51,410 nucleotides of DNA from a virus (IMGVR_UViG_3300031857_000280:1-51410), one strand, 5' to 3'. Positions 14,198-44,226 are shown, counted from the stretch's first letter. Translations and numbers: made by a program. The notes: a model not told the origin generated them from the sequence alone.

Positions 14198-15202
14198 ATG
14201 CGATTCTCACACATCAAAACTTCCGTGCTCGAGCAGTTCAAAGCACCACAGGGCAACAAGATTGTTCCGTTCATCTTGGGTGCACCCGGCGGTGGCAAGT
14301 CAGCCGTAGCCCGTGACATTGTCAGCAGCCTCGGCATCGAGCAATCCAAAGTCATCGAGTTCACCGCATCCCTGCGTGACCCTGTTGACGTGCTCGGCGT
14401 CCCAGACGTCAGTGGCGACTACACCCGCTGGGTCCCACCCCAAGAGTTCTTCCAGATTCGCAAAGGCCAAGGCCCATGCGCCCTCATCCTCGAAGAGTTG
14501 TCCGATGCCCCTGTCCCCATGCAGAATGCCCTGTGCGGTGTCATCTACGACCGCCGTGCAGGTAACTTGCAACTCTCGGACAACCTGTTCATCATCGCCA
14601 CCGGTAACCGCACCGAGGACAAGTCAGGCGCCAACCGCATCACATCCAAGTTGGCCAACCGCACTCGTCGCTTCGACTTCCAAGAGAACCTCGAGGACTG
14701 GACCGACTGGGCACTCGACAACGACATCGACCCTGTGCTCATTCAGTTCCTGCGTTTCCGGCCCGGCATGCTCTCCGACTTCGACCCCAACCGCTTCGCC
14801 AACCCAACGCCTCGCTCATGGGAACGTGTCGACCTCATCCCTGCGTCTCTCGACTCCGCACTGTTCTACGACAACGTGGCCGGTGAGGTCGGCGAGGGTG
14901 CAGCTGCGGAATACACGGGCTTCCGCCGCATCTACATGGGCTTGCCTGACGTTGACGCTGTATTGCTCGACCCCAAGGGTGCCGACGTGCCAGCCGACCC
15001 AGCTACGCTCTATGCCCTGACCGGTGCTATCGCTCGCAAAGCCACCAAGGACAACTTCGGCCGTGTCTCCGACTACCTCGGACGACTGCCAGTCGAGTTC
15101 AACGTCATGGCAGCACGTGACTCCATCAGGCTCCAGCCGGATATCAAGTCCTCCAAGTCCTTCCTCGAGTGGGCTTCCAAATACAGCGAGGTGCTCATGT
15201 GA
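14198..15202 (+). CDS. MoxR-type AAA+ ATPase
   Basis: A 334-residue ATPase. Walker A is GAPGGGKS (residues 28-35), Walker B is 'CALILEE' (about 94-100), sensor 1 is 'IIATGN' (Asn137), and an Arg-finger candidate lies in 'LANRTRRF'. MoxR proteins form hexamers that remodel or load cofactors into partners, classically a VWA-domain protein. The partner is encoded five genes downstream (16458-17564). The four small genes between them may be substrates or adaptors. The cellular target is not evident. Leader motif and AAAGG precede the start. Confidence 0.85.
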   Translation: MRFSHIKTSVLEQFKAPQGNKIVPFILGAPGGGKSAVARDIVSSLGIEQSKVIEFTASLRDPVDVLGVPDVSGDYTRWVPPQEFFQIRKGQGPCALILEELSDAPVPMQNALCGVIYDRRAGNLQLSDNLFIIATGNRTEDKSGANRITSKLANRTRRFDFQENLEDWTDWALDNDIDPVLIQFLRFRPGMLSDFDPNRFANPTPRSWERVDLIPASLDSALFYDNVAGEVGEGAAAEYTGFRRIYMGLPDVDAVLLDPKGADVPADPATLYALTGAIARKATKDNFGRVSDYLGRLPVEFNVMAARDSIRLQPDIKSSKSFLEWASKYSEVLM

Positions 15203-15477
15203 CCCTGCACTGGGAAATAGAGGACCTCGCCTTCTTCGGAGGGTCCTCCCGTGCCGGTGTCATCGTCCATGTTCTCAAGAAACGCAACGTCGTCCCGACA
15301 CCGGGCACTGACCTGACTGCGACATGGTATGTAGACACGGCCTACGTCACCAAGAAGGGGGAGCGCAAGTGGCTTGCGTTCTTCCCCACACACGCACAAA
15401 GTGCGAACGACAAGATGTTCCGCACCAAGAAAGCAGCCATGGCTTACGCCTTGGTCATCGTCCAACTCACTCAATGA
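15199..15477 (+). CDS. Hypothetical protein coupled to the MoxR gene
   Basis: A 92-residue protein. I place the start at the GTG at 15199, overlapping the MoxR stop by 4 bp (GTGA) with GAGG upstream. The N-terminal half is beta-rich with a Trp/Phe-rich surface ('WEIEDLAFFGGSSRAG'), and the C-terminus is a helix ('KKAAMAYALVIVQLT'). Not recognised. Coupling suggests a role with the ATPase; that is inference. Confidence 0.55.
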   Translation: MTLHWEIEDLAFFGGSSRAGVIVHVLKKRNVVPTPGTDLTATWYVDTAYVTKKGERKWLAFFPTHAQSANDKMFRTKKAAMAYALVIVQLTQ

Positions 15478-15486
15478 AAGTCAGAC

Positions 15487-15708
15487 ATGCAAATCAAAGA
15501 TGAACCCTACATCCTCGTGCAGTGCTATGGGTATCTCGCCATACCCTCCTCACAGTTCCCCGCTGTCATGAACTCCCTCGTGGTCGAGCGCAAATACAAA
15601 GACGGCAGCTACACCTTGCAGACCGAAGGCAAGCGTCCGGAGTTCATGGTGTGTGAGGCACAAGATGTGCGCGCAGCACTCACTGCGCACAAGCTGGAGA
15701 AATCATGA
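15487..15708 (+). CDS. Small hypothetical protein in the MoxR/VWA cluster
   Basis: A 73-residue alpha/beta protein ('YILVQCYGYLAIPSSQF', later 'DGSYTLQTEGKRPEF') ending in an ATGA overlap with the next gene. Not recognised. Confidence 0.55.
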   Translation: MQIKDEPYILVQCYGYLAIPSSQFPAVMNSLVVERKYKDGSYTLQTEGKRPEFMVCEAQDVRAALTAHKLEKS

Positions 15709-15923
15709 GCATCGCATCAGAAGTAGCCGCGCAGATAGAGGAGCTCGAGGATGAAGTCCACAGCCTCAATGTCCAGCTCGAGGACAAAGCCAAAGAGATT
15801 GAAGCGTTCGAGCATAGCTTGGAAGCCCTCGATGCAGACTACGACGATTTCATCACCTACGCAGAATCAATCACCCCAGGCATTCGACTTGCCTACAAAG
15901 CCCAGAAGGAGCTAACCAGATGA
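15705..15923 (+). CDS. Coiled-coil micro-protein in the MoxR/VWA cluster
   Basis: A 72-residue acidic protein. Residues 5-50 show continuous heptads ('QIEELEDEVHSLNVQLEDKA'), a probable dimeric coiled coil. ATGA overlaps on both sides couple it to its neighbours. It could be an adaptor bridging complex subunits; no direct evidence. Confidence 0.6.
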   Translation: MSIASEVAAQIEELEDEVHSLNVQLEDKAKEIEAFEHSLEALDADYDDFITYAESITPGIRLAYKAQKELTR

Positions 15924-16456
15924 AGAAGAGCCTATACACGCTCATGCGCACGGCCAACGTGCAAGGCATGACAACAACATTCTCAATCGAGCCAGACAGG
16001 ATTGGGCCGCGTGTCCGCAACAACGCAGTGCGCATGCTCAGAGATGGGTTCGTGCATGGTCGTGGCAACGCAGCCAACATTGCGCTTCGCATGTCGGAGA
16101 AGTTGAACGCACACATCCCGCATAACTACTACGGCGAGTCCATCCTCATGTTCGCCAACCCATACACAGCAGAGGGTGCAGACAAAATCGTTGAGCGGAT
16201 GCGGGCTTGCATCACTGCCGAACTGCTAACGGAGAACAGCGACTGGCGCCGAGAGCGACTCAAAGACGACCTAGCCAAGGCAGGTGAACTCTTTAGCAGT
16301 CGCAACTACATGCGGTTCTATGGCATGAACGTCTACGAGGTGAAAGAGTTCTTGGCGCCGCACATCAGGCAAGACGTCCGCGACAGGCTGGAGCAAGCAG
16401 CACAGATGCTGCTGGCCAGCGAACCCATCCACATCGAAACTTACAGGAGCAACTAA
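15920..16456 (+). CDS. Hypothetical protein preceding the VWA-like metallopeptidase
   Basis: A 178-residue, mainly helical protein with many Arg residues ('RIGPRVRNNAVRMLRDGF', 'MRACITAELLTENSDWRRER'). It is coupled to the coiled-coil gene by ATGA and followed one base later by the metallopeptidase/VWA gene. Not recognised. Tight packing implies joint expression with the AAA+/VWA pair. Confidence 0.6.
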   Translation: MKKSLYTLMRTANVQGMTTTFSIEPDRIGPRVRNNAVRMLRDGFVHGRGNAANIALRMSEKLNAHIPHNYYGESILMFANPYTAEGADKIVERMRACITAELLTENSDWRRERLKDDLAKAGELFSSRNYMRFYGMNVYEVKEFLAPHIRQDVRDRLEQAAQMLLASEPIHIETYRSN

Positions 16457-16457
16457 C

Positions 16458-17564
16458 ATGGCAGTCACCAACCTCGACAGAGCTCGCGTAGAGATTACGC
16501 TCAGCCACCCCTTCTTCGCCTCCATCCTCATGAAGCGCAAGATGCTCCCACGCACCGATATCAAGACAGCCGCTGTCGACCAGCGTGGGCAGATTTACTA
16601 CAACCCCGACTTCGTCGCCAACAAATCAGTCGGCGAGCTTGTCTTCCTGCTGTGCCATGAGGTCGGCCATGTCATCGGTCAGCATGCTTCCCGCCTTGGT
16701 AACCGCAACCACAAGAAGTGGAACATCGCCGGTGACGCATGGATTAACGACATGCTCCGTGCCGCCAATGTCGGCGAGTTCATCGAGGGCGGCGTCGATA
16801 TGCCCGGCTCCAAGGACGAGACCGTTGACTCCATCTACAACAAGCTGCCCGACAACCCTGACGGTAACGGCCCTGGCGGTATCGGTGACGACCTGCTCCA
16901 AGAAGGCAACCCACTGACACCCGAGGAGCTCGACAAGATAGACGCCGAGACCCGCGTCGAGATTGCCCAAGCTGCCCAAGCTGCCAAGATGCAGGGCAAG
17001 ATGCCAGCCGCACTCGAGAAGCTTGTCGCTGACCTCATCGACGTCAAGACCCCATGGCATGACATCCTCGAGCGTTACATGACCTCGCTGGCTCGCGGTG
17101 ACTACTCGTGGGCTCGACCCAACCGCCGCTTCGCTAAGACCGCATACCTGCCCAGCGTCGGCACGACACAGCAGATGACCTCCATCGCTATCCAAGTCGA
17201 TGTGTCCGGCTCCATCAGCCAGCGAGAACTCGCCTACTACAACGGCCACTTGAAGCGCATCGTCGAGCTGTGCAGTCCCGAGACCATCCACGTGTTGTAT
17301 ACCGACACCAATGTCCTCGCCCATGAGATCATCCCCCGCGGCGAGGAGTTCAACCTGTCCTTCCGCTCTGGTGGTGGCACTGACATGGAGGCTGGCTTCG
17401 ACTATCTGGCTGAGCAAGGTATCGAGCCCGACGTGTTCGTCTGCCTGACTGACGGCTACACAGACTTCAACGAAGCCAACGCTCCGGCGTATGATGTTGT
17501 CTGGTGCATCAGCACCGACGTCGTCCCGTCCTACGGCGTCCACATCCCCTTCCAGATGGAGTAA
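16458..17564 (+). CDS. Putative metallopeptidase with VWA-like domain (DUF2201 type)
   Basis: A 368-residue protein with two parts. Residues 1-130 carry a zinc-peptidase signature HEVGH (67-71) within 'FLLCHEVGHVIGQH', as in DUF2201-type N-terminal domains. A Gly/Pro-rich linker and a helical region follow. The C-terminal VWA-like domain has the metal-site motif D-V-S-G-S (248-252), then 'SGGGTDMEAGF' and 'FVCLTDGYTD'. Such proteins are genomic partners of MoxR ATPases. Whether it cleaves proteins or acts only as a scaffold cannot be read from the sequence, although the zinc ligands are intact. Confidence 0.82.
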   Translation: MAVTNLDRARVEITLSHPFFASILMKRKMLPRTDIKTAAVDQRGQIYYNPDFVANKSVGELVFLLCHEVGHVIGQHASRLGNRNHKKWNIAGDAWINDMLRAANVGEFIEGGVDMPGSKDETVDSIYNKLPDNPDGNGPGGIGDDLLQEGNPLTPEELDKIDAETRVEIAQAAQAAKMQGKMPAALEKLVADLIDVKTPWHDILERYMTSLARGDYSWARPNRRFAKTAYLPSVGTTQQMTSIAIQVDVSGSISQRELAYYNGHLKRIVELCSPETIHVLYTDTNVLAHEIIPRGEEFNLSFRSGGGTDMEAGFDYLAEQGIEPDVFVCLTDGYTDFNEANAPAYDVVWCISTDVVPSYGVHIPFQME

Positions 17565-17566
17565 TC

Positions 17567-17725
17567 ATGGCCACAGCACAGCAAGCAACCCAAGCTCTCA
17601 AAGACTTATCCCAGGCATACCGCGAGTTCCTGCAACTAGCGCACGATGCACTGGCCCCCGATGCAACCCCTGAAGAACGCAAAGCCATACGTGAACAAAT
17701 CAAACTGTTTATTGACGGCAAGTAA
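17567..17725 (+). CDS. Small helical protein closing the MoxR/VWA cluster
   Basis: A 52-residue Ala/Gln/Glu-rich helical protein ('ATQALKDLSQAYREFLQLAH'). The ATG at 17567 has GGAG five bases upstream. It is the last gene before a strong terminator, so it belongs to the same transcript as the AAA+/VWA genes. Not recognised. Confidence 0.6.
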   Translation: MATAQQATQALKDLSQAYREFLQLAHDALAPDATPEERKAIREQIKLFIDGK

Positions 17726-17744
17726 GCAACCTTCCCCCAACCAG

Positions 17745-17774
17745 ACAGGCCCCCAACAGGGCCTGTTTTAATTT
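17745..17774 (+). terminator. Intrinsic terminator ending the MoxR/VWA cluster
   Basis: ACAGGCCC and GGGCCTGT (8-bp stem, six-base loop) are followed by TTTAATTT. It lies 20 bases after the stop of the 52-aa gene. Confidence 0.75.
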
Positions 17775-35862: not shown

Positions 35863-38800
35863 TTACCTTTCGACAATGTCCTCAACCATACCGCGGCTGG
35901 CACGGGTGAATTGTACCCCGCCAGCAGTTTCCCGTTCACGTTTTGATTGCTCACGTGGGGCTTTCAGCAGGTTGGACAGTGGCTGGCGCTTCAATCCGGC
36001 ACGAACTCGGGCTTCTTGCAGCTTGTTCCAGTCGGCGCGCGCCTCGGCTGCAGCTGCGGAGTCACCCTTGCGGATGGCTTGGCTGTAGTCGTTCTTGAGG
36101 CGGCTGGTACGGTCGGTGAAGCGCTGCTCGACGTCGCGTACTCGCTGCTGTTTCTCGTACATGGCGGTAATCTGGGCTGGCGGGATGCCAAGGGCCTGGA
36201 ACAAAACCTCCATGGTGTCGAGTTCGTCTGCTGGCAGGATGACGTCGTTGTTGCGACGGGTAGCCCCGTCGGTACCCAAGCGATAGGCCTTGATCATGTC
36301 GCCCAAACCCTTTGGCAACACCAGCTCCATACCCTTGAGGTAGTCGCCGTTGGCCAGCAAACCCAGACCGTCCACACCGCGCACCACCATGCCGCCGGAC
36401 GCGCCAGCAACCAAGGTGCCCAAGCCTTCGTAGAAGCCCGAGCGGGTGGTCAGGTCGGCATTGGAGAACGGCATGATCGAGAGCATGTTGCCCGCACCAA
36501 TCTTGCCCGAAACGTCCGCGCCACCCAAAGTTGGAACACCGCGCAAGACCATGTTGGCCAAGTCGTCGTCACCGATCAGCTTGCGGATTTCGTCGGTCAG
36601 GTCGAACGCTTCATCGTCGTCACCGAACACAGCGCCCAAGGCCCAAGCGACAGCTGCGTAGCCGGGCAAGCCCATGGCACCAGCCAGCACACCGGTGTGA
36701 GCCAAGCCAAAAGCCAAGGAACGCAAAGCCGCACCGCGCTGAGCGGGGTCAGAGTAGGCTTGCTTGATCATCTTGGCGTACCAAGTCAGCTGGATAAGCT
36801 GGAACTTGCGGAACTGCAGCGCGATACGGCCAAACGAGGTATTGAACGCCCGAGGCGCGTTAAAGCGGCTGTAGTCACCATGGGTCTCGAGCAAAATGCG
36901 CTCGGCGTAGTCGATGGCTTGGTCGGCGGTTGCGCCCTTCTTGGACATGGCCAGACGGTAAGCTGCAATAGCCGTGGACAAGCGGTTGATGGCTTCGCCC
37001 TTCTGGACTGCAGCGCGCAGACCCTTGTCCACAGAGTTCCATGCGGCGCCGAAGCGGCTCTCACCGTCCACCTTGAACTCACCCAGTTCGGTGTCGATAC
37101 CGATGTCCACGCGACCGCGGTTGACCAGCTGATTGATGGCGTTCTTCACGTCCGCTGGCACCTTGGTGAAATCCAGCTGCTTCATCAGCGAAGCCGACTT
37201 CATCATGGGGGCCAGCTCGCCGTAGGCCTTGAACAGCTCTGCGTTGACCTTGGCGTAGCTGTGATCACCCGCCATGGCAGGGACCGACATCATGAACGGC
37301 TGGGTCAAGTTCTGCAGGTAGTACGCTGGGCTGGTGGCCAAGAAGTACACCGACGACATGCGGGTGAGCTTGTCCAAAACTGGCGTGTTCGGAACTTCCA
37401 GCGAGTCAGCGTAGCGGCGCACAATCTCGTTGAGCACTTCGGACTTGCGGGTGCGGTCACCAGTCTTGGCCTCTTCGCGCATGCGGTTGAGGTCTCTGGA
37501 GACCTGCTCGCTGTACTGGAGCGAAGCCAAGAAGTTGGCGTCGGCGCGACCCTGGGTGCCAAACGAGGCGATCATGTCCACTTCACCGTCCACACCGCGG
37601 CGCTTCATTTCCGACTTGCGAGCACTGCCCTCGGCCAAAGCGTCCAGGTACATCTGGTTGATGATGTTGAGCAACGGGCCGGACTCTTTCTCGCCAGCCC
37701 TGACTCGGCTGTCCACGTTGGTGCGCAGCTTGGAGAGCTGCTGCAACGCGCCTTCGTTGGAGAACAACTCGTCGGTCACCGTGTCGCGCTCGGCCAACTG
37801 GACGTCACCGAAGCCACCTTGGTCTTGGAGCTGCTGCATCAAAGTGCGGCCGGCGTTCTTGCCGTCCACGAAAGACACGTGGTAGTCGTCACCGCTGGCT
37901 TGCAGTTTCTCGAGTGCCTTGGTGTCGCCGGCGGCTTCAGCAGCCAAGTACTTGGGTGACTTGGCGATGACCACGTAGTTGCCGTTGCGCTTGATAGGCG
38001 CGTATGGACGACCCTCGGTGATGGCGAACAACGACTCGTAGCGCTTGAGCGACAGCTTCTTGGCTGTACGCAGCTCGGCTTTCTCTTTGTCGGTCTGGGC
38101 AGCGGCGATCTGGGCGTCAAACACCGACGTGGTGTTGTCGATCACAACAGACTTCTTGCGAGCCAGCATGCGGTCACCATGGTCAAACATGGCCTCGATC
38201 AGCTTTCGCGACTCTTTGGACAGCGCATTGAAGCGCGCCTTCATCTCTGGGTCAGCCTTGGGGCCGTAGCCCCACTTACCCGTGCGGGTGGAGTCAAAAA
38301 TGAACCGGTTGACGCTGCCATCACCAGTACCGCGCTCGGCCTGGGGCACGTCGGCATACAGGTCCAACACAGCCTCAATGGCACGCTCCTCTTCGCGGGT
38401 AGCAAAGTCACGAGCGGACAGCGAGCGCAGCAAGTTGTCGGCGGACTTCAGGCCGAGGCTGGTAGCGCGCTTGACCAAGTCCGAGGTGAACATCACCTTG
38501 TCGAGGAACTTGCCACCGGCGTCGCTCAAGGTGCCCGCGATAATGTTTGCTGGCTGCTGCACCTGCTTGGGCAAACGGTTGATGTTGTTCAACCTAGTGC
38601 CACGGGGTTGGGCACGGGTAGCTTGGTTTACGCCTTCAGGGGCGTTCTTGCCGAACTTCATCCCACGCACCCTTGGAGCCGGACCTGTGCGTGGCATTTC
38701 CGTAAACTCAGGTTGCGCTGGGCGGTCTGCCTTACCAAGCATCCAATCAGGAGCGAAACGCTCTAAGTTCTGACGGCCAGCAGCGTCAAGGCCGGTTACA

Positions 38801-41800
38801 GCAGCAGGACGCAATGTTGTGTCGGTGCTAAACCGACCATGCTGCAAGAGCGCAAAAATTGATGGGCGCAACTGAGTAGCGTCGCTGCCGCTTAAGGCGT
38901 CAATGTCTCCACTCTCCAAGCGTTGCAGCACCGTGCGTTCAACACCGTTCAACGGAGCGCGTTCTTTGTAAGTCTCGAGCTCTTTATCAAGCGCAGCTTG
39001 GGCCTCTTCGCGTTTGCGGGTAGGGCCTTCGTTGTTCAGCAGGTTGTCACGAGCATCGCCCTTGAAAGCGTCCCACAACTTTTGCGGCACAAGCTCAAAC
39101 GAGCGCACAACTTTGCCGTTAACCACGAGGTCAACCACACGGCCACCTTCACGGTCGCGGAGTTCGGGGGCAGCCTCAGCCGATTCTTCAGTACCGAACT
39201 TCATGCGCTGACGGTCAGCTCCAGCTTGGGCGCCCACGCGGAAGATGTTCTTGTCGTCGAAGACAACGATGTTGCGCGTCTTAGGCAAAGACACCAAGCG
39301 GATGCCGTCGGCGTTTGCATTCAGCCATGCGAGCTGTTTGCCTTCGTAGGATTTATCGGCTTCTTTCTGCGCACGAACCCGATCTGCGGCGACATCTGCT
39401 TTGACCTTAAATCGGGCAGCGGAGTCGGCGTAAATCCCAGCGAGCATTTCCGCTTGCTTGGCAACTTTGGTTTCCAGTTCTGCTTTGACGTCGTCAATAC
39501 CGTTGCGCAGAACGTCCCTCAACAGGAGAAACTGCATGGTCTTGTCGGAGTCTTTGTCGCGGTACTTGCGCATCTGGTCACGCAGTTCGTCGCGGTTGTA
39601 AGTTTTTCCATCAAAGGAAACAGCGTCTGTAGCAGAACCGCGGCTGCGAGCATCCAAGAAGCGAATGCCGTCCAAACCGTTGGCCTGCAAGTAGTGGCTG
39701 GCTGCTTCGTGGAATTTACCTCGGCGGACAGCCTCGTCAAATTGTTTGTTCTGGCCCACTGGCAACGTCAATGCGTCGTTCATGATGAGCTCGCTCAACA
39801 AGCCAAGGCTATTTTCCCCGCTACCGATAAGGTCTTGGCCGGTCAGCTCTTCAACGTCTTTGTTGGTTCGGTCAGTGATTTCATCGGCGTGAGGGTCAAG
39901 CAACTCCATGAGTTTGTCAGCCACGTAAGGCGACTGCTTGATAACCGGCTTGTCGTAGTCCAGCATGCGCTCGTTGTCGACAGCGGTGTCGACGCGCATG
40001 AGACTGCCTTCTGGCACTACAAGCTCCCCAAAGAAAACTACCGTTTCCTGCTTACCCTGCGGGGAAATCAGGTCGAGGCTGTCTATACTGACTTGGCGCA
40101 CCGCGTCCGCCACATCACTTGCAAAAGACTTGTCGACCACTTGGCCAGCGCGCAGCAATACGCTTCGGTCCAAGGGGTGAATTACGTCTTCCGCAAGCTC
40201 CCACCCTTGGTAGTTAGCAAGCACGTCCATAACATTGAGGTCTGGGCGAGCGGTCTTTCGTCGGACATCAGCCGCCCAATACCCCTTGGCAATTCCAACC
40301 CGCTCGGCCAAGTACGTGCCCCAGCCATAAGCAGTTGCGCCTTCGCCCGACCCAATGAACTTGTTGCTGAAGTTGCGGAACGCAGCAGCCGTACCGTGCC
40401 AAGTGCCGGCGATCTCCAAGCGAGCAGCGCCGAAAGCCAAGTTGACAACGTCTTGCGAAGTCATGGACTCAGGCTTGACGCCGAGTGCGCGCGCCGCAGT
40501 CTTAAACGCTGCCCACAAGGTGCGGAACCAGTCACGCAACGGACCAGACTCTTTGCCGGCTGCTGTGGGGTCGATGCCAGACTCCATGGCTTCTTCGATG
40601 AAGTACGCCAACAACTCGGAGCGCTGGTCTTCTTTGGGGGTGCCCGCAGCCATGACGCGAGCCGCGGCAGCATTGGCCAACTCCGCCTCTGTGGAGCCGT
40701 CGTCTTTCTTTGCCCAGTCGAGGATTTGCTGAGTCAACTTGTCGTACGACTTTTTCGACAGCAGGTTTTCCAAGCCCAAGTGGGCCCCGACTTCGTGCAT
40801 GAACTTGGCACGGCCAGAGCCTTTGTTGATTCGGTTGGCAATCAGGTACGCACGACCGTTGGCGGCCACGCCGTAGGCTTGGTTCAACGCAATGCCGGCA
40901 CCTGCAATTTGGACGTCGCGATCGGGGTGGTTGAGCAGGTCCTGAATAGAGTCCACCACCAGAAGCTTGCGGCCTGGGATGTCAGCGCGAATGAAGGCTT
41001 TGATCTCAGCCAGCAGCTCCTTGGCTGTGTATGGTTTGCGCGCAGGTACGTCCATACCAAACTTGCCGTCGGACATCAAGTTGTTCACAGCAGCCAAGTT
41101 CAGGCTGTCGCGGTTGTTGAGGTCAGCCAGCTGATCTTGTTGGGCCTTGGTCAAGCTGTCAAACGTAGGAGCGCCGGGGATGCCGGCAGTGACTTCGGCG
41201 TAGCGCTCTTGAGTCGTCAGGACTTTGGCTTCTGTTTTGGCTTGACCTTCTGTGGCAGGCTTTTCGGCACGCCGTACTTGTCGGCCCACTTTTTGGCCAG
41301 TTTCGGCTTTTGGCTGAACAGGTACCCCTGCTGCGCTTGGCTTTTGAACGGCATTGATTTTCTCCAGTGGGGCCAGCTTAACGGACAGCTCACGCGTCTG
41401 GCCGTTTTGGAATTTGATGGTAGCTGTGGTTGCGTCGCCGTTGCCGGCGAACTTCTCGATGACGCCAGTGCCCAATTTGGGGTTGACCACGGTGTCGCCA
41501 ACTTCCAAGCCTTTGCGCTCGGCTTTTCGTTTGGCATCGGCTTCTGCCACGAGCTTCTCACGCAGAGCTTTTTCCTGTGCGCTGAGTTCGCCCTTTTCAG
41601 GTTTGGCTTCGCCCTTCTTGGCTTTCTTCTCCTCGATATCAACCTTGGCGGCTTCAACGCGCCCGGTGAGCTGAGCAGTCAGCGCTTGCACTTGAGCAGT
41701 AGCAGCATCCAGCGCTACGCTTGGGCCTTGGGCAGCCAGTGTGTCAACGATACGCTGGGCATCTTTTAACTGGGCGTCGAGCTTGAAGAACGCGTCGGCC

Positions 41801-44226
41801 GCAGGGTTGCCCTTGGAGCTTTCCTCTTGCCAGAAACGGCTGCTGTCCTCCACAAACCCGGCGTCCGGGCTAAGACCTTGAGCTGCCAACCCGGCACCAA
41901 ACACGTTGGGGTCGTTGACGGCGCGCTCGGCTTCGGCTTCTTGCTCGCGCTCAGCGCGCTCGGCAGTTTCGGGCTTGCGGGTCTTGCTGCGGTCAGCAAT
42001 GTCAAACGCATCCAGCACTTGCCCACGGGTCAAACCAGCAGCCTGGCCGGAGCTAACCAGCGTTTCGGTGTTGCCGATTTTTCTGATGGCAGCTGCGGTC
42101 ACACCATACTGAGTGGCCAGGGCTTGAATAACAGTCTCACTGACGCCTTGCGCAGAACCACGCGTAGCGGCCAAGTACGCCTCAAGAATCTGACGGTCAC
42201 GAGCAGGGTTGCGTGACTTGGCAAAGCGCGCTGCAAGAGCGGCCTCAATCTGGTTCTCGGTGGCAGTTTCTTCGTCAACCCGTTGACCGGTGGCTTCATC
42301 CTCGAGGGTAGACGCCAAGTCTTGTTGCCCGGTCATGGCAGCAATGTCCAAGCGGTTTTGCTCTTCCTCGGACAGGCCCATCACATCGGCCAAACGATCG
42401 ACTGTTGGGGCTGGGGTTATCCCTGCTGCGGCGGCAGCTGGTGCCGCTTGTCCTTGCGTTTCTGTTTGCTGGGCTTGAGGGGTCGTAGGGCCACTTGGGA
42501 TTCCTTGAGAAAGACCCACCACGGCCGGAGCCGCAGTGGGTAAAACCCCAGCGGGCTTTGGTACGCCGGGGACCTCGGAGACAACGGGAGCCGCTGCACG
42601 GCGGGAATTGATGACTGCTTCGTCCAGCATCTGGAGCGCACGAGTAAGCTGCTTCTTACCCATGGGGCGCTGGGCGGCAAACGTAATGACTGGAGACGCA
42701 ATGTCAGAGTCCAAGGGGATGCCGGCCTGCTCTATGGCGTCCATCAGCTGCAACGCAGGCGCCGTGGGCACAACACCCAACGTGTCCCGCAAGAACAAAG
42801 CCCGTGGGTCGCGCAGCGTTTGAGTAGCCGCAGCCTCTGCCACAGCCGTTTGACCTGGTTTGTCCTGAGTCAGGTCCAGCACGCCGTTCTGCATCTGGTA
42901 CAGCTCGCCGACGGTCAGCTCGCGCTCGATGCCGGTTTCTGGGTCAGCACCAAACTGGCCGCTAGGCTCGTTGAACGCGCCCTCAAAGTTCTTGACGTAC
43001 TTCTTGGGGTCAACCTTTTTGCGGGTCAAGCCAACGGCTTGGTTGATAGCCTGCGCGCTGGTGCGGCCTGGGGTCAGCAAATCTTGGTCCGACAGCTGTG
43101 CAGTCAGCCCTTCTTCGGAAACCATCTGGGCCAGCGTCTTGTCACGGTTGGCCAGGGCCTCAGCGTTAGCGCGCTCTTCCGCTTCACGCAGGGCTTCGGT
43201 GCGAGCGTCCTCAATCTGGAGCTGTTGCTCAAACCAAGCGTCGACGTTTTGGGGGGCGATGTTCTGGCGCTGCGCTTCCGCCATGACAGCATCAATGGCC
43301 TTCGCACGCACTTGTGGGTCGGTGTCTGCACCGTACAAAGCCTGCTTGAGTTCTTCGCTGCGGCGTGCGCGAATGGCGGAGCCGCCAAAGTTAAATGGGC
43401 CGAGCAGCAGGGCCATACCGAAACCAGCCTTGGCCGACTCCGCAGCAATTTGACCTGCGTCTTCAGGAGCGGCGCCATAAGCGCGCTCGATGTACTCTGT
43501 ACCCACGTCCTGAATGGCTTCCGTGGTTGGCTGAACTGCCAAGTTGGTTGCGTAGGCGCGAGCAAAAGGCGCCAGAACTCGGGTGTCTGTGAGTCGGTCA
43601 GCAACTTGGCCAGTTGTCTTAGCCCCAGTCAGCCCGCGAGCCAGCGGTGCAATCGTGCGCGCGCCAACAAAAGACGCAGCGGCTTCACCAGCGCCCTGCA
43701 ACAGGCCAACGCGACGAGCGGCAGCACTGGCCTCTTCTTCAGAAACACCTTGGGAAATGAGCTTTTCGTACGTGTCTTGAGCGCTGGAAGTGCCGAACAA
43801 TCCGCCAACGGCAAGAGGGGCAACCGCTTGGCCGCCGGGCACAAAGAACAAAGGCACCGAAGCCGCTACGGGGCCAAGGCCACGACCGCCGGCGACCAAC
43901 GCTTGACCAACAACTCCGCGGCCGCGCATATCTGGCTGCCAGCCGGGGGCGCGCTCTTCAGCGCTCTGAACCAAGGCTTCGCCAGTTTCGGGGGCAATGC
44001 CGGTGTATTTCAAACCCTGGCCGACCATGCGTGGCAAGTCCACGGCAATGCCGGCGCCAAACTGACGGGCCACCTCGGAAGCTGTGCCGCGAGGAGCTAC
44101 GCCAAACGCTGTCGAAACTTCTTCGACCGAAACCCCAGTCCGCTTAGAGACCTCACCAAGCACCTCGGAGTCACTTGCGTCTTGAAGTTCCGGGAATGCT
44201 TGGCGGAGTTTATTGAGAGCAGACAT
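35863..44226 (-). CDS. Giant polyvalent/ejection protein with ART domain
   Basis: A 2787-residue protein. Visible parts: hydrophobic Gly-rich segment (117-146); Ala/Glu coiled regions (350-880); a Tudor/KOW-like barrel (about 905-955, 'EVGDTVVNPKLGTGVIEKF'); a degenerate metallopeptidase-like region with HEVGAH (1144-1149); an ART-PolyVal ADP-ribosyltransferase-like domain (from about 1275: H1277-G-T, then 'GSGEGATAYGWGTY' 1292-1305); long helical regions; a conserved-looking 'YFLATSPAYYLQNLTQP' (about 2295); and hydrophobic helices near 2495-2530. Such proteins are packaged and injected. It is third in the ejection-protein row, like T7 gp16. Confidence 0.8.
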   Translation of the reverse strand: MSALNKLRQAFPELQDASDSEVLGEVSKRTGVSVEEVSTAFGVAPRGTASEVARQFGAGIAVDLPRMVGQGLKYTGIAPETGEALVQSAEERAPGWQPDMRGRGVVGQALVAGGRGLGPVAASVPLFFVPGGQAVAPLAVGGLFGTSSAQDTYEKLISQGVSEEEASAAARRVGLLQGAGEAAASFVGARTIAPLARGLTGAKTTGQVADRLTDTRVLAPFARAYATNLAVQPTTEAIQDVGTEYIERAYGAAPEDAGQIAAESAKAGFGMALLLGPFNFGGSAIRARRSEELKQALYGADTDPQVRAKAIDAVMAEAQRQNIAPQNVDAWFEQQLQIEDARTEALREAEERANAEALANRDKTLAQMVSEEGLTAQLSDQDLLTPGRTSAQAINQAVGLTRKKVDPKKYVKNFEGAFNEPSGQFGADPETGIERELTVGELYQMQNGVLDLTQDKPGQTAVAEAAATQTLRDPRALFLRDTLGVVPTAPALQLMDAIEQAGIPLDSDIASPVITFAAQRPMGKKQLTRALQMLDEAVINSRRAAAPVVSEVPGVPKPAGVLPTAAPAVVGLSQGIPSGPTTPQAQQTETQGQAAPAAAAAGITPAPTVDRLADVMGLSEEEQNRLDIAAMTGQQDLASTLEDEATGQRVDEETATENQIEAALAARFAKSRNPARDRQILEAYLAATRGSAQGVSETVIQALATQYGVTAAAIRKIGNTETLVSSGQAAGLTRGQVLDAFDIADRSKTRKPETAERAEREQEAEAERAVNDPNVFGAGLAAQGLSPDAGFVEDSSRFWQEESSKGNPAADAFFKLDAQLKDAQRIVDTLAAQGPSVALDAATAQVQALTAQLTGRVEAAKVDIEEKKAKKGEAKPEKGELSAQEKALREKLVAEADAKRKAERKGLEVGDTVVNPKLGTGVIEKFAGNGDATTATIKFQNGQTRELSVKLAPLEKINAVQKPSAAGVPVQPKAETGQKVGRQVRRAEKPATEGQAKTEAKVLTTQERYAEVTAGIPGAPTFDSLTKAQQDQLADLNNRDSLNLAAVNNLMSDGKFGMDVPARKPYTAKELLAEIKAFIRADIPGRKLLVVDSIQDLLNHPDRDVQIAGAGIALNQAYGVAANGRAYLIANRINKGSGRAKFMHEVGAHLGLENLLSKKSYDKLTQQILDWAKKDDGSTEAELANAAAARVMAAGTPKEDQRSELLAYFIEEAMESGIDPTAAGKESGPLRDWFRTLWAAFKTAARALGVKPESMTSQDVVNLAFGAARLEIAGTWHGTAAAFRNFSNKFIGSGEGATAYGWGTYLAERVGIAKGYWAADVRRKTARPDLNVMDVLANYQGWELAEDVIHPLDRSVLLRAGQVVDKSFASDVADAVRQVSIDSLDLISPQGKQETVVFFGELVVPEGSLMRVDTAVDNERMLDYDKPVIKQSPYVADKLMELLDPHADEITDRTNKDVEELTGQDLIGSGENSLGLLSELIMNDALTLPVGQNKQFDEAVRRGKFHEAASHYLQANGLDGIRFLDARSRGSATDAVSFDGKTYNRDELRDQMRKYRDKDSDKTMQFLLLRDVLRNGIDDVKAELETKVAKQAEMLAGIYADSAARFKVKADVAADRVRAQKEADKSYEGKQLAWLNANADGIRLVSLPKTRNIVVFDDKNIFRVGAQAGADRQRMKFGTEESAEAAPELRDREGGRVVDLVVNGKVVRSFELVPQKLWDAFKGDARDNLLNNEGPTRKREEAQAALDKELETYKERAPLNGVERTVLQRLESGDIDALSGSDATQLRPSIFALLQHGRFSTDTTLRPAAVTGLDAAGRQNLERFAPDWMLGKADRPAQPEFTEMPRTGPAPRVRGMKFGKNAPEGVNQATRAQPRGTRLNNINRLPKQVQQPANIIAGTLSDAGGKFLDKVMFTSDLVKRATSLGLKSADNLLRSLSARDFATREEERAIEAVLDLYADVPQAERGTGDGSVNRFIFDSTRTGKWGYGPKADPEMKARFNALSKESRKLIEAMFDHGDRMLARKKSVVIDNTTSVFDAQIAAAQTDKEKAELRTAKKLSLKRYESLFAITEGRPYAPIKRNGNYVVIAKSPKYLAAEAAGDTKALEKLQASGDDYHVSFVDGKNAGRTLMQQLQDQGGFGDVQLAERDTVTDELFSNEGALQQLSKLRTNVDSRVRAGEKESGPLLNIINQMYLDALAEGSARKSEMKRRGVDGEVDMIASFGTQGRADANFLASLQYSEQVSRDLNRMREEAKTGDRTRKSEVLNEIVRRYADSLEVPNTPVLDKLTRMSSVYFLATSPAYYLQNLTQPFMMSVPAMAGDHSYAKVNAELFKAYGELAPMMKSASLMKQLDFTKVPADVKNAINQLVNRGRVDIGIDTELGEFKVDGESRFGAAWNSVDKGLRAAVQKGEAINRLSTAIAAYRLAMSKKGATADQAIDYAERILLETHGDYSRFNAPRAFNTSFGRIALQFRKFQLIQLTWYAKMIKQAYSDPAQRGAALRSLAFGLAHTGVLAGAMGLPGYAAVAWALGAVFGDDDEAFDLTDEIRKLIGDDDLANMVLRGVPTLGGADVSGKIGAGNMLSIMPFSNADLTTRSGFYEGLGTLVAGASGGMVVRGVDGLGLLANGDYLKGMELVLPKGLGDMIKAYRLGTDGATRRNNDVILPADELDTMEVLFQALGIPPAQITAMYEKQQRVRDVEQRFTDRTSRLKNDYSQAIRKGDSAAAAEARADWNKLQEARVRAGLKRQPLSNLLKAPREQSKRERETAGGVQFTRASRGMVEDIVER

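Follow-up and report, generated by a model that had tools for sequence, protein, structure and literature searches.

The 51,410 bases of the virus record IMGVR_UViG_3300031857_000280, hereafter the window, carry on their plus strand a MoxR-type AAA+ ATPase gene, four small genes (genes 2 to 5), a gene for a DUF2201 protein that joins a metallopeptidase-like domain to a VWA domain, a fifth small gene (gene 7) and a terminator, all in one tight unit. The GTG start of gene 2 overlaps the stop codon of the ATPase gene (ATGTGA), 9 nucleotides separate genes 2 and 3, ATGA overlaps join gene 3 to gene 4 and gene 4 to gene 5, the ATG of the VWA gene lies 1 nucleotide past gene 5 with AGGAG upstream, and the ATG of gene 7 lies 2 nucleotides past the VWA gene. 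These overlaps and joins of 1-9 nucleotides bear out the tight coupling of the small genes noticed in an initial annotation. The strong terminator reported there likewise holds up: an intrinsic-terminator-like hairpin with a 10-pair stem and a U-rich tail (17743..17768, plus strand) has a predicted stability of -22 kcal/mol (z -3.03) that none of 200 shuffles equalled, though it is not among the hits of a consensus terminator scan. The whole unit is probably read as a shared transcript.

The ATPase (14198..15202, plus strand, 334 residues) is a homologue of N4 gp24. It matches phrog_1297 ('ATPase') at 5.7e-66 and Pfam AAA_5 with 22 bits, exactly at the cut-off. Walker A spans G28-S35 (GAPGGGKS) and Walker B is E99-E100, the positions given by the initial annotation. 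E99 stands in place of the usual D, as it does in about half of 118 family members, among which the sensor 1 residue N137 and the arginines R155 and R206 are almost invariant. Membership in the MoxR family is thus indicated by Walker A and B, sensor 1 and arginine finger, together with the linked gene for a VWA-domain partner; the nearest relative of solved structure is the AAA+ part of midasin.

The DUF2201 protein (16458..17564, plus strand, 368 residues) is a homologue of N4 gp25 and matches PF13203 with 155 bits (3.1e-45, cut-off 23.2), PF09967 with 58.6 bits (8.8e-16, cut-off 26.4) and phrog_1314 at 7.8e-86. An N-terminal HExxH metallopeptidase-like domain precedes a C-terminal VWA domain with a metal-ion-dependent adhesion site (MIDAS). 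As first annotated, both sites are intact: HEVGH lies at 67-71, and the MIDAS is complete, with the D-x-S-x-S motif at 248-252 (D248, S250, S252) as well as T308 and D332. Across 129 DUF2201 proteins of phages, plasmids and bacteria, D248, S250 and S252 are invariant (129/129); 128 proteins retain T308 and D332, and 124-126 retain H67, E68, H71 and D93. In three Paraburkholderia proteins (L223, L224 and L225) these last four residues are lost together while the MIDAS is kept. Because the loss is joint, D93 can be read as the third ligand of a single metal site, which suggests that it is a likely metal ligand alongside H67 and H71. A putative zincin-type domain is also in line with weak profile hits to peptidases of the M48 and minigluzincin-like kinds (for the latter, the MJ1213 and projannalysin entries). 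A Variovorax plasmid protein (L099) also has a broken HExxH site and an intact MIDAS. The label 'HNH endonuclease', carried by phrog_1314 and by many records, was rejected, the Pfam matches being confined to DUF2201_N, DUF2201 and, weakly, an M48 peptidase; on N4 gp25 and its kin it is a mislabel that has spread through many RefSeq and PHROGs entries.

The order of the two large genes is kept in every relative tested. Where enough flanking sequence was available, the VWA gene lies downstream of MoxR in 18/18 loci and MoxR upstream of the VWA gene in 17/17; with the order so conserved, the pairing is more than chance. In tblastn searches, 700 phage records contained the ATPase and 525 the DUF2201 protein; a single window protein used as query gave no match in bacterial genomes. 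Phage N4 encodes homologues of both proteins, the MoxR ATPase gp24 and the DUF2201 VWA protein gp25, with order and orientation unchanged, but, unlike in the window, no gene lies between them. They are listed as core genes of N4-like phages (PMC4193335, PMC7650795). The group 2.2 jumbo phages of a published survey likewise carry a MoxR gene and a vWA protein fused to an N-terminal metallopeptidase, at a genome position that differs from that in the window (PMC7824862), and the DUF2201/vWA members of the large phages G and Cassandra align with the window protein. The pair is therefore a known kind of viral protein-remodelling pair, of the N4 gp24/gp25 type, and not the 'undescribed' machine first proposed.

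Similar couples of an AAA+ ring and a VWA/MIDAS partner operate in cells, as NorQ-NorD, RavA-ViaA, CbbQ-CbbO and midasin, and there, unlike here, the cellular targets are known. To our knowledge, no HExxH domain occurs in any of these four. The NorQD structure solved by cryo-electron microscopy provides a precedent for a ring-VWA mechanism (PMC13036017). We consider it fairly probable that the window encodes a phage-borne AAA+ co-chaperone or peptidase of the N4 gp24/gp25 kind, acting at an early or middle stage on an intracellular protein, and the earlier suggestion that the pair remodels or processes a partner protein is plausible. From family resemblance, the MoxR protein would most likely form an ATP-driven ring with the DUF2201 protein as its partner; the VWA/MIDAS domain would grip the target, and the HExxH domain, with the probable ligands H67, H71 and D93, would cut or bind it. 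Cycles of ATP in the ring would reshape the partner and thereby remodel or clip the target, on the model of NorQ-NorD.

Whether cutting belongs to this scheme bears on a reading that we regard as rather unlikely, namely a chaperone without proteolysis, in which the N-terminal domain of DUF2201 binds metal or target structurally and the ring does no more than remodel, or insert a cofactor, in the manner of NorQ-NorD. Known MoxR-VWA pairs are mainly chaperones, and the three Paraburkholderia proteins and the Variovorax one have a broken HExxH site with an intact MIDAS; yet HExxH and D93 are intact in about 96% of the 129 diverse phage and plasmid members, beyond what a purely structural role would lead one to expect.

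The setting of the unit hints at its time of action. Head, portal, terminase, lysis and tail genes and a 2787-residue DarB-like protein are encoded on the minus strand towards both ends of the window, and the plus strand of its middle part encodes DNA polymerase, helicase and primase. The MoxR-DUF2201 unit lies on the plus strand, 7 kb ahead of the DNA polymerase and on the strand opposite to the head and tail genes; from this position, expression would probably fall in the early or middle phase, with an intracellular host or phage protein as target. The window is colinear with two long relatives of 63 and 60 kb, and its shortfall against them is mainly in the structural region; judged from them, its early/middle region is covered. 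No relative at the DNA level was found in the phage collection. An N4-like phage (Schitoviridae) was considered and rejected, since N4-type RNA polymerases were not found: a T7-type RNA polymerase (PF00940) is absent from the window and from three long relatives, while the N4 control gives a match.

To see the unit in a wider sample, we assembled 79 relatives' loci from two protein searches of viral contigs and counted the contents of the MoxR-VWA gap in 54 loci, window included; many of the contigs are close kin, so that locus counts are not independent events. The gap is always present, measures 0.9-4.3 kb and is nearly fully coding on the same strand, with contents that vary. Its constant occupant is a protein of about 291 residues, found in 52 of the 54 loci, the exceptions being the window and its sister contig L001. 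In a search of viral contigs with this protein itself, MoxR lay upstream in 47/47 loci and the VWA gene downstream in 54/54 with enough flank. In Synechococcus phage MinM2 a protein annotated DUF3150 is encoded between the two genes, and the profile match to it is 99.7%. Full membership in DUF3150 (PF11348) was rejected: the best score, 22.2 bits, stays below the cut-off of 24.9, and at E<=0.01 the model matches 2/17 members of the family. As the cut-off is not reached, we name the protein only DUF3150-like. A fold search against PDB gave no significant match, homology to the genes around the pair of N4, LIT1, CRP-7, phage G, Cassandra and TM27A and to the middle genes of an Arcobacter and an Acinetobacter plasmid was tested with a negative outcome, and no mention of DUF3150 was found in the literature searched.

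Homology of the DUF3150-like protein to the middle protein of Burkholderiales plasmid operons extends over its full length (hhalign 99.8%, against 0.1% for residue-shuffled controls). These operons, on plasmids and in genomes, have three homologous genes, MoxR, DUF3150-like and DUF2201, in the same order as the window's relatives; unlike those phage units, they lack genes 2-5 and 7 and usually stand beside type IV secretion genes, and the window in turn lacks the middle gene. Among 33 Burkholderiales genome loci with the DUF3150-like gene, MoxR lies upstream in 28/28, DUF2201 downstream in 32/32, and a VirB11-like secretion ATPase within 5 kb of it in 28/33.

In the window itself, the DUF3150-like protein was not found in any of six frames, and L001 also lacks it. 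The two are sisters (support 100/99) nested inside lineages that have the protein, so a single loss of the gene is the simplest account. Truncation of the contig is unlikely as the cause, because colinear relatives place the gene in the covered region and because L001 lacks it too. The part shared by the relatives is thus absent here, which was not visible from one window. Since the lineage has lost this part, the pair must be able to work without it, as in N4, where the DUF3150-like protein was not found in the whole genome. The jumbo-phage pair was also published as two genes, with no mention of a DUF3150-like partner in the accessible part of the survey (PMC7824862). The standard unit of the group would read MoxR, variable small genes, DUF3150-like, often gene 5, DUF2201 and often gene 7. 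We advance as possible, short of probable, that the DUF3150-like protein is a third core subunit of an AAA+ machine of mobile elements, shared by phages and type IV secretion plasmids, which the window's lineage has dropped, working instead with the fast-evolving gene 5 and gene 7.

The plasmid operons also bear on a role in virion assembly, in which the pair would be an assembly chaperone that also processes structural proteins. Such a role was proposed for the jumbo-phage pair (PMC7824862) and has been shown in part for Acidianus two-tailed virus, whose MoxR ATPase p618 binds, and is stimulated by, the VWA protein p892 and also binds tail proteins (PMC4124505); this archaeal virus, unlike the window's, has no peptidase domain in the pair and develops its tail extracellularly. 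In cyanophage S-TIM54, again unlike the window, the two genes overlap by 4 nucleotides and adjoin Hsp20 and virion structural genes, and additional structural genes lie close to gp24/gp25 in some N4-like phages. Against this stand the location of the window's unit, which shares the strand of the replication genes and lies apart from the structural ones, the transcription of N4 gp24/gp25 as middle genes (PMC4193335), and the occurrence of the same operon, DUF3150-like part included, on plasmids and at bacterial type IV secretion loci. A plasmid makes no virion, and the unit is encoded opposite the head and tail genes, so virion assembly would not be the pair's general role; we hold it to be an unlikely, though serious, explanation here. 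Position, N4 middle transcription and presence on plasmids together argue for the intracellular target of the co-chaperone or peptidase that we favour. Several points weigh against that preference. Some members lack the metal site, which means that proteolysis can at times be dispensed with; neither a solved structure for the DUF2201 family nor, in the literature searched, an experiment on a phage DUF2201 protein was found; the promoter scan was not significant (5 matches against 5.4 expected), and the time of expression is deduced from position; complex formation between MoxR and DUF2201 is likewise presumed, the structure predictions being of single chains.

The small genes differ widely in how faithfully they accompany the pair. 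Gene 2 (15199..15477, plus strand, 92 residues, GTG start with an alternative GTG at 15169; cluster c3) belongs to a variable family of 75-105-residue proteins usually encoded right after MoxR; its cluster is related by profile to c2 and c5, and at least one such gene occurs in 43/54 gaps. Gene 3 (15487..15708, plus strand, 73 residues; cluster c7) is sporadic, in 8/54 gaps; the idea that it replaces the lost DUF3150-like gene was rejected, as both co-occur in other loci. Gene 4 (15705..15923, plus strand, 72 residues) forms a singleton cluster unique to the window and, in line with the pure coiled coil first described, gives weak matches to many coiled-coil families and nothing else. Gene 5 (15920..16456, plus strand, 178 residues; cluster c1) is present in 37/54 gaps, and gene 7 (17567..17725, plus strand, 52 residues, helical) has family members directly after the VWA gene in 38/55 loci. 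Co-occurrence with the pair, offered earlier as the check on the small genes, thus fails for genes 3 and 4 and holds in part for genes 5 and 7. The initial idea of a new six-protein machine, with the four in-between proteins as substrates or adaptors, draws on the tight gene coupling and on the frequency of gene 5 and of gene-2-like genes. It does not stand as formulated and is highly improbable: gene 4 is confined to the window and gene 3 is rare, 17/54 loci have the DUF3150-like protein and no gene 5, the two large genes are adjacent in N4 and S-TIM54, and the relatives' dominant in-between protein is missing here. Genes 3 and 4 probably ride along in a variable slot as passengers; genes 5 and 7 are likely accessory factors.

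Gene 5 is the fast-evolving companion of the pair. At VWA identities of 75-85%, median identities are 77 for MoxR, 64 for the DUF3150-like protein, 36 for gene 7 and 26 for gene 5, and gene 5 is already down to 69% where the VWA protein is still at 95-99.9%. Since it is alignable over its length among relatives and its predicted fold is confident (predicted local distance difference test 88.9, predicted template modelling score 0.81), it is a real, fast-changing protein. Its fold gave no significant match in PDB and one weak match on the viral side; as queries, the window's gene 5 and that of L001 found no further relatives, and homology to genes near the pair in the same six phages (N4 to TM27A) was tested and rejected. 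Gene 5 is perhaps a changing specificity or regulatory part. Its rapid change would also suit a counter-defence or host-takeover device that follows changing host targets, the more so as the unit is common to phages and plasmids, both of which need to establish themselves in a cell. We find this doubtful: PADLOC defence-system models matched nothing in the unit beyond the coiled coil of gene 4, gene 5 is absent from 17/54 loci, and fast change fits weak constraint as well.

Relative to the literature searched, what is new is the usual third partner with its plasmid relatives, its loss here, the fast-evolving companion and the likely metal ligand. The gp24/gp25 pair belongs to the core of an entire phage family, with relatives in jumbo phages; the third partner, D93, the members without a metal site and the natural loss of the third partner offer concrete mutants and comparisons, and the association with type IV secretion loci of plasmids suggests, instead of the building of virions, a task that phages have in common with conjugative elements.

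Other occupants of the slot were also seen. A short family of 65 residues occurs in 17/54 gaps, and cluster c8 (166-212 residues), by eye HNH-type homing endonuclease-like, occupies the slot in L001, L048, L002 and L028. The pair of Roseobacter phage CRP-7 encloses seven small genes of other kinds, one of them for a MazG-like pyrophosphohydrolase, which makes the slot a general insertion place. Elsewhere in the window, the 2787-residue reading frame (35863-44226, minus strand) matches, over its C-terminal third, the DarB-like antirestriction family (1e-61), and not a polymerase. In the 63-kb contig of the relative G001 (L101/L104), about 3.9 kb at both ends encode the same protein set (structural genes, capsid), so that either its ends are duplicated or two genomes have been joined.

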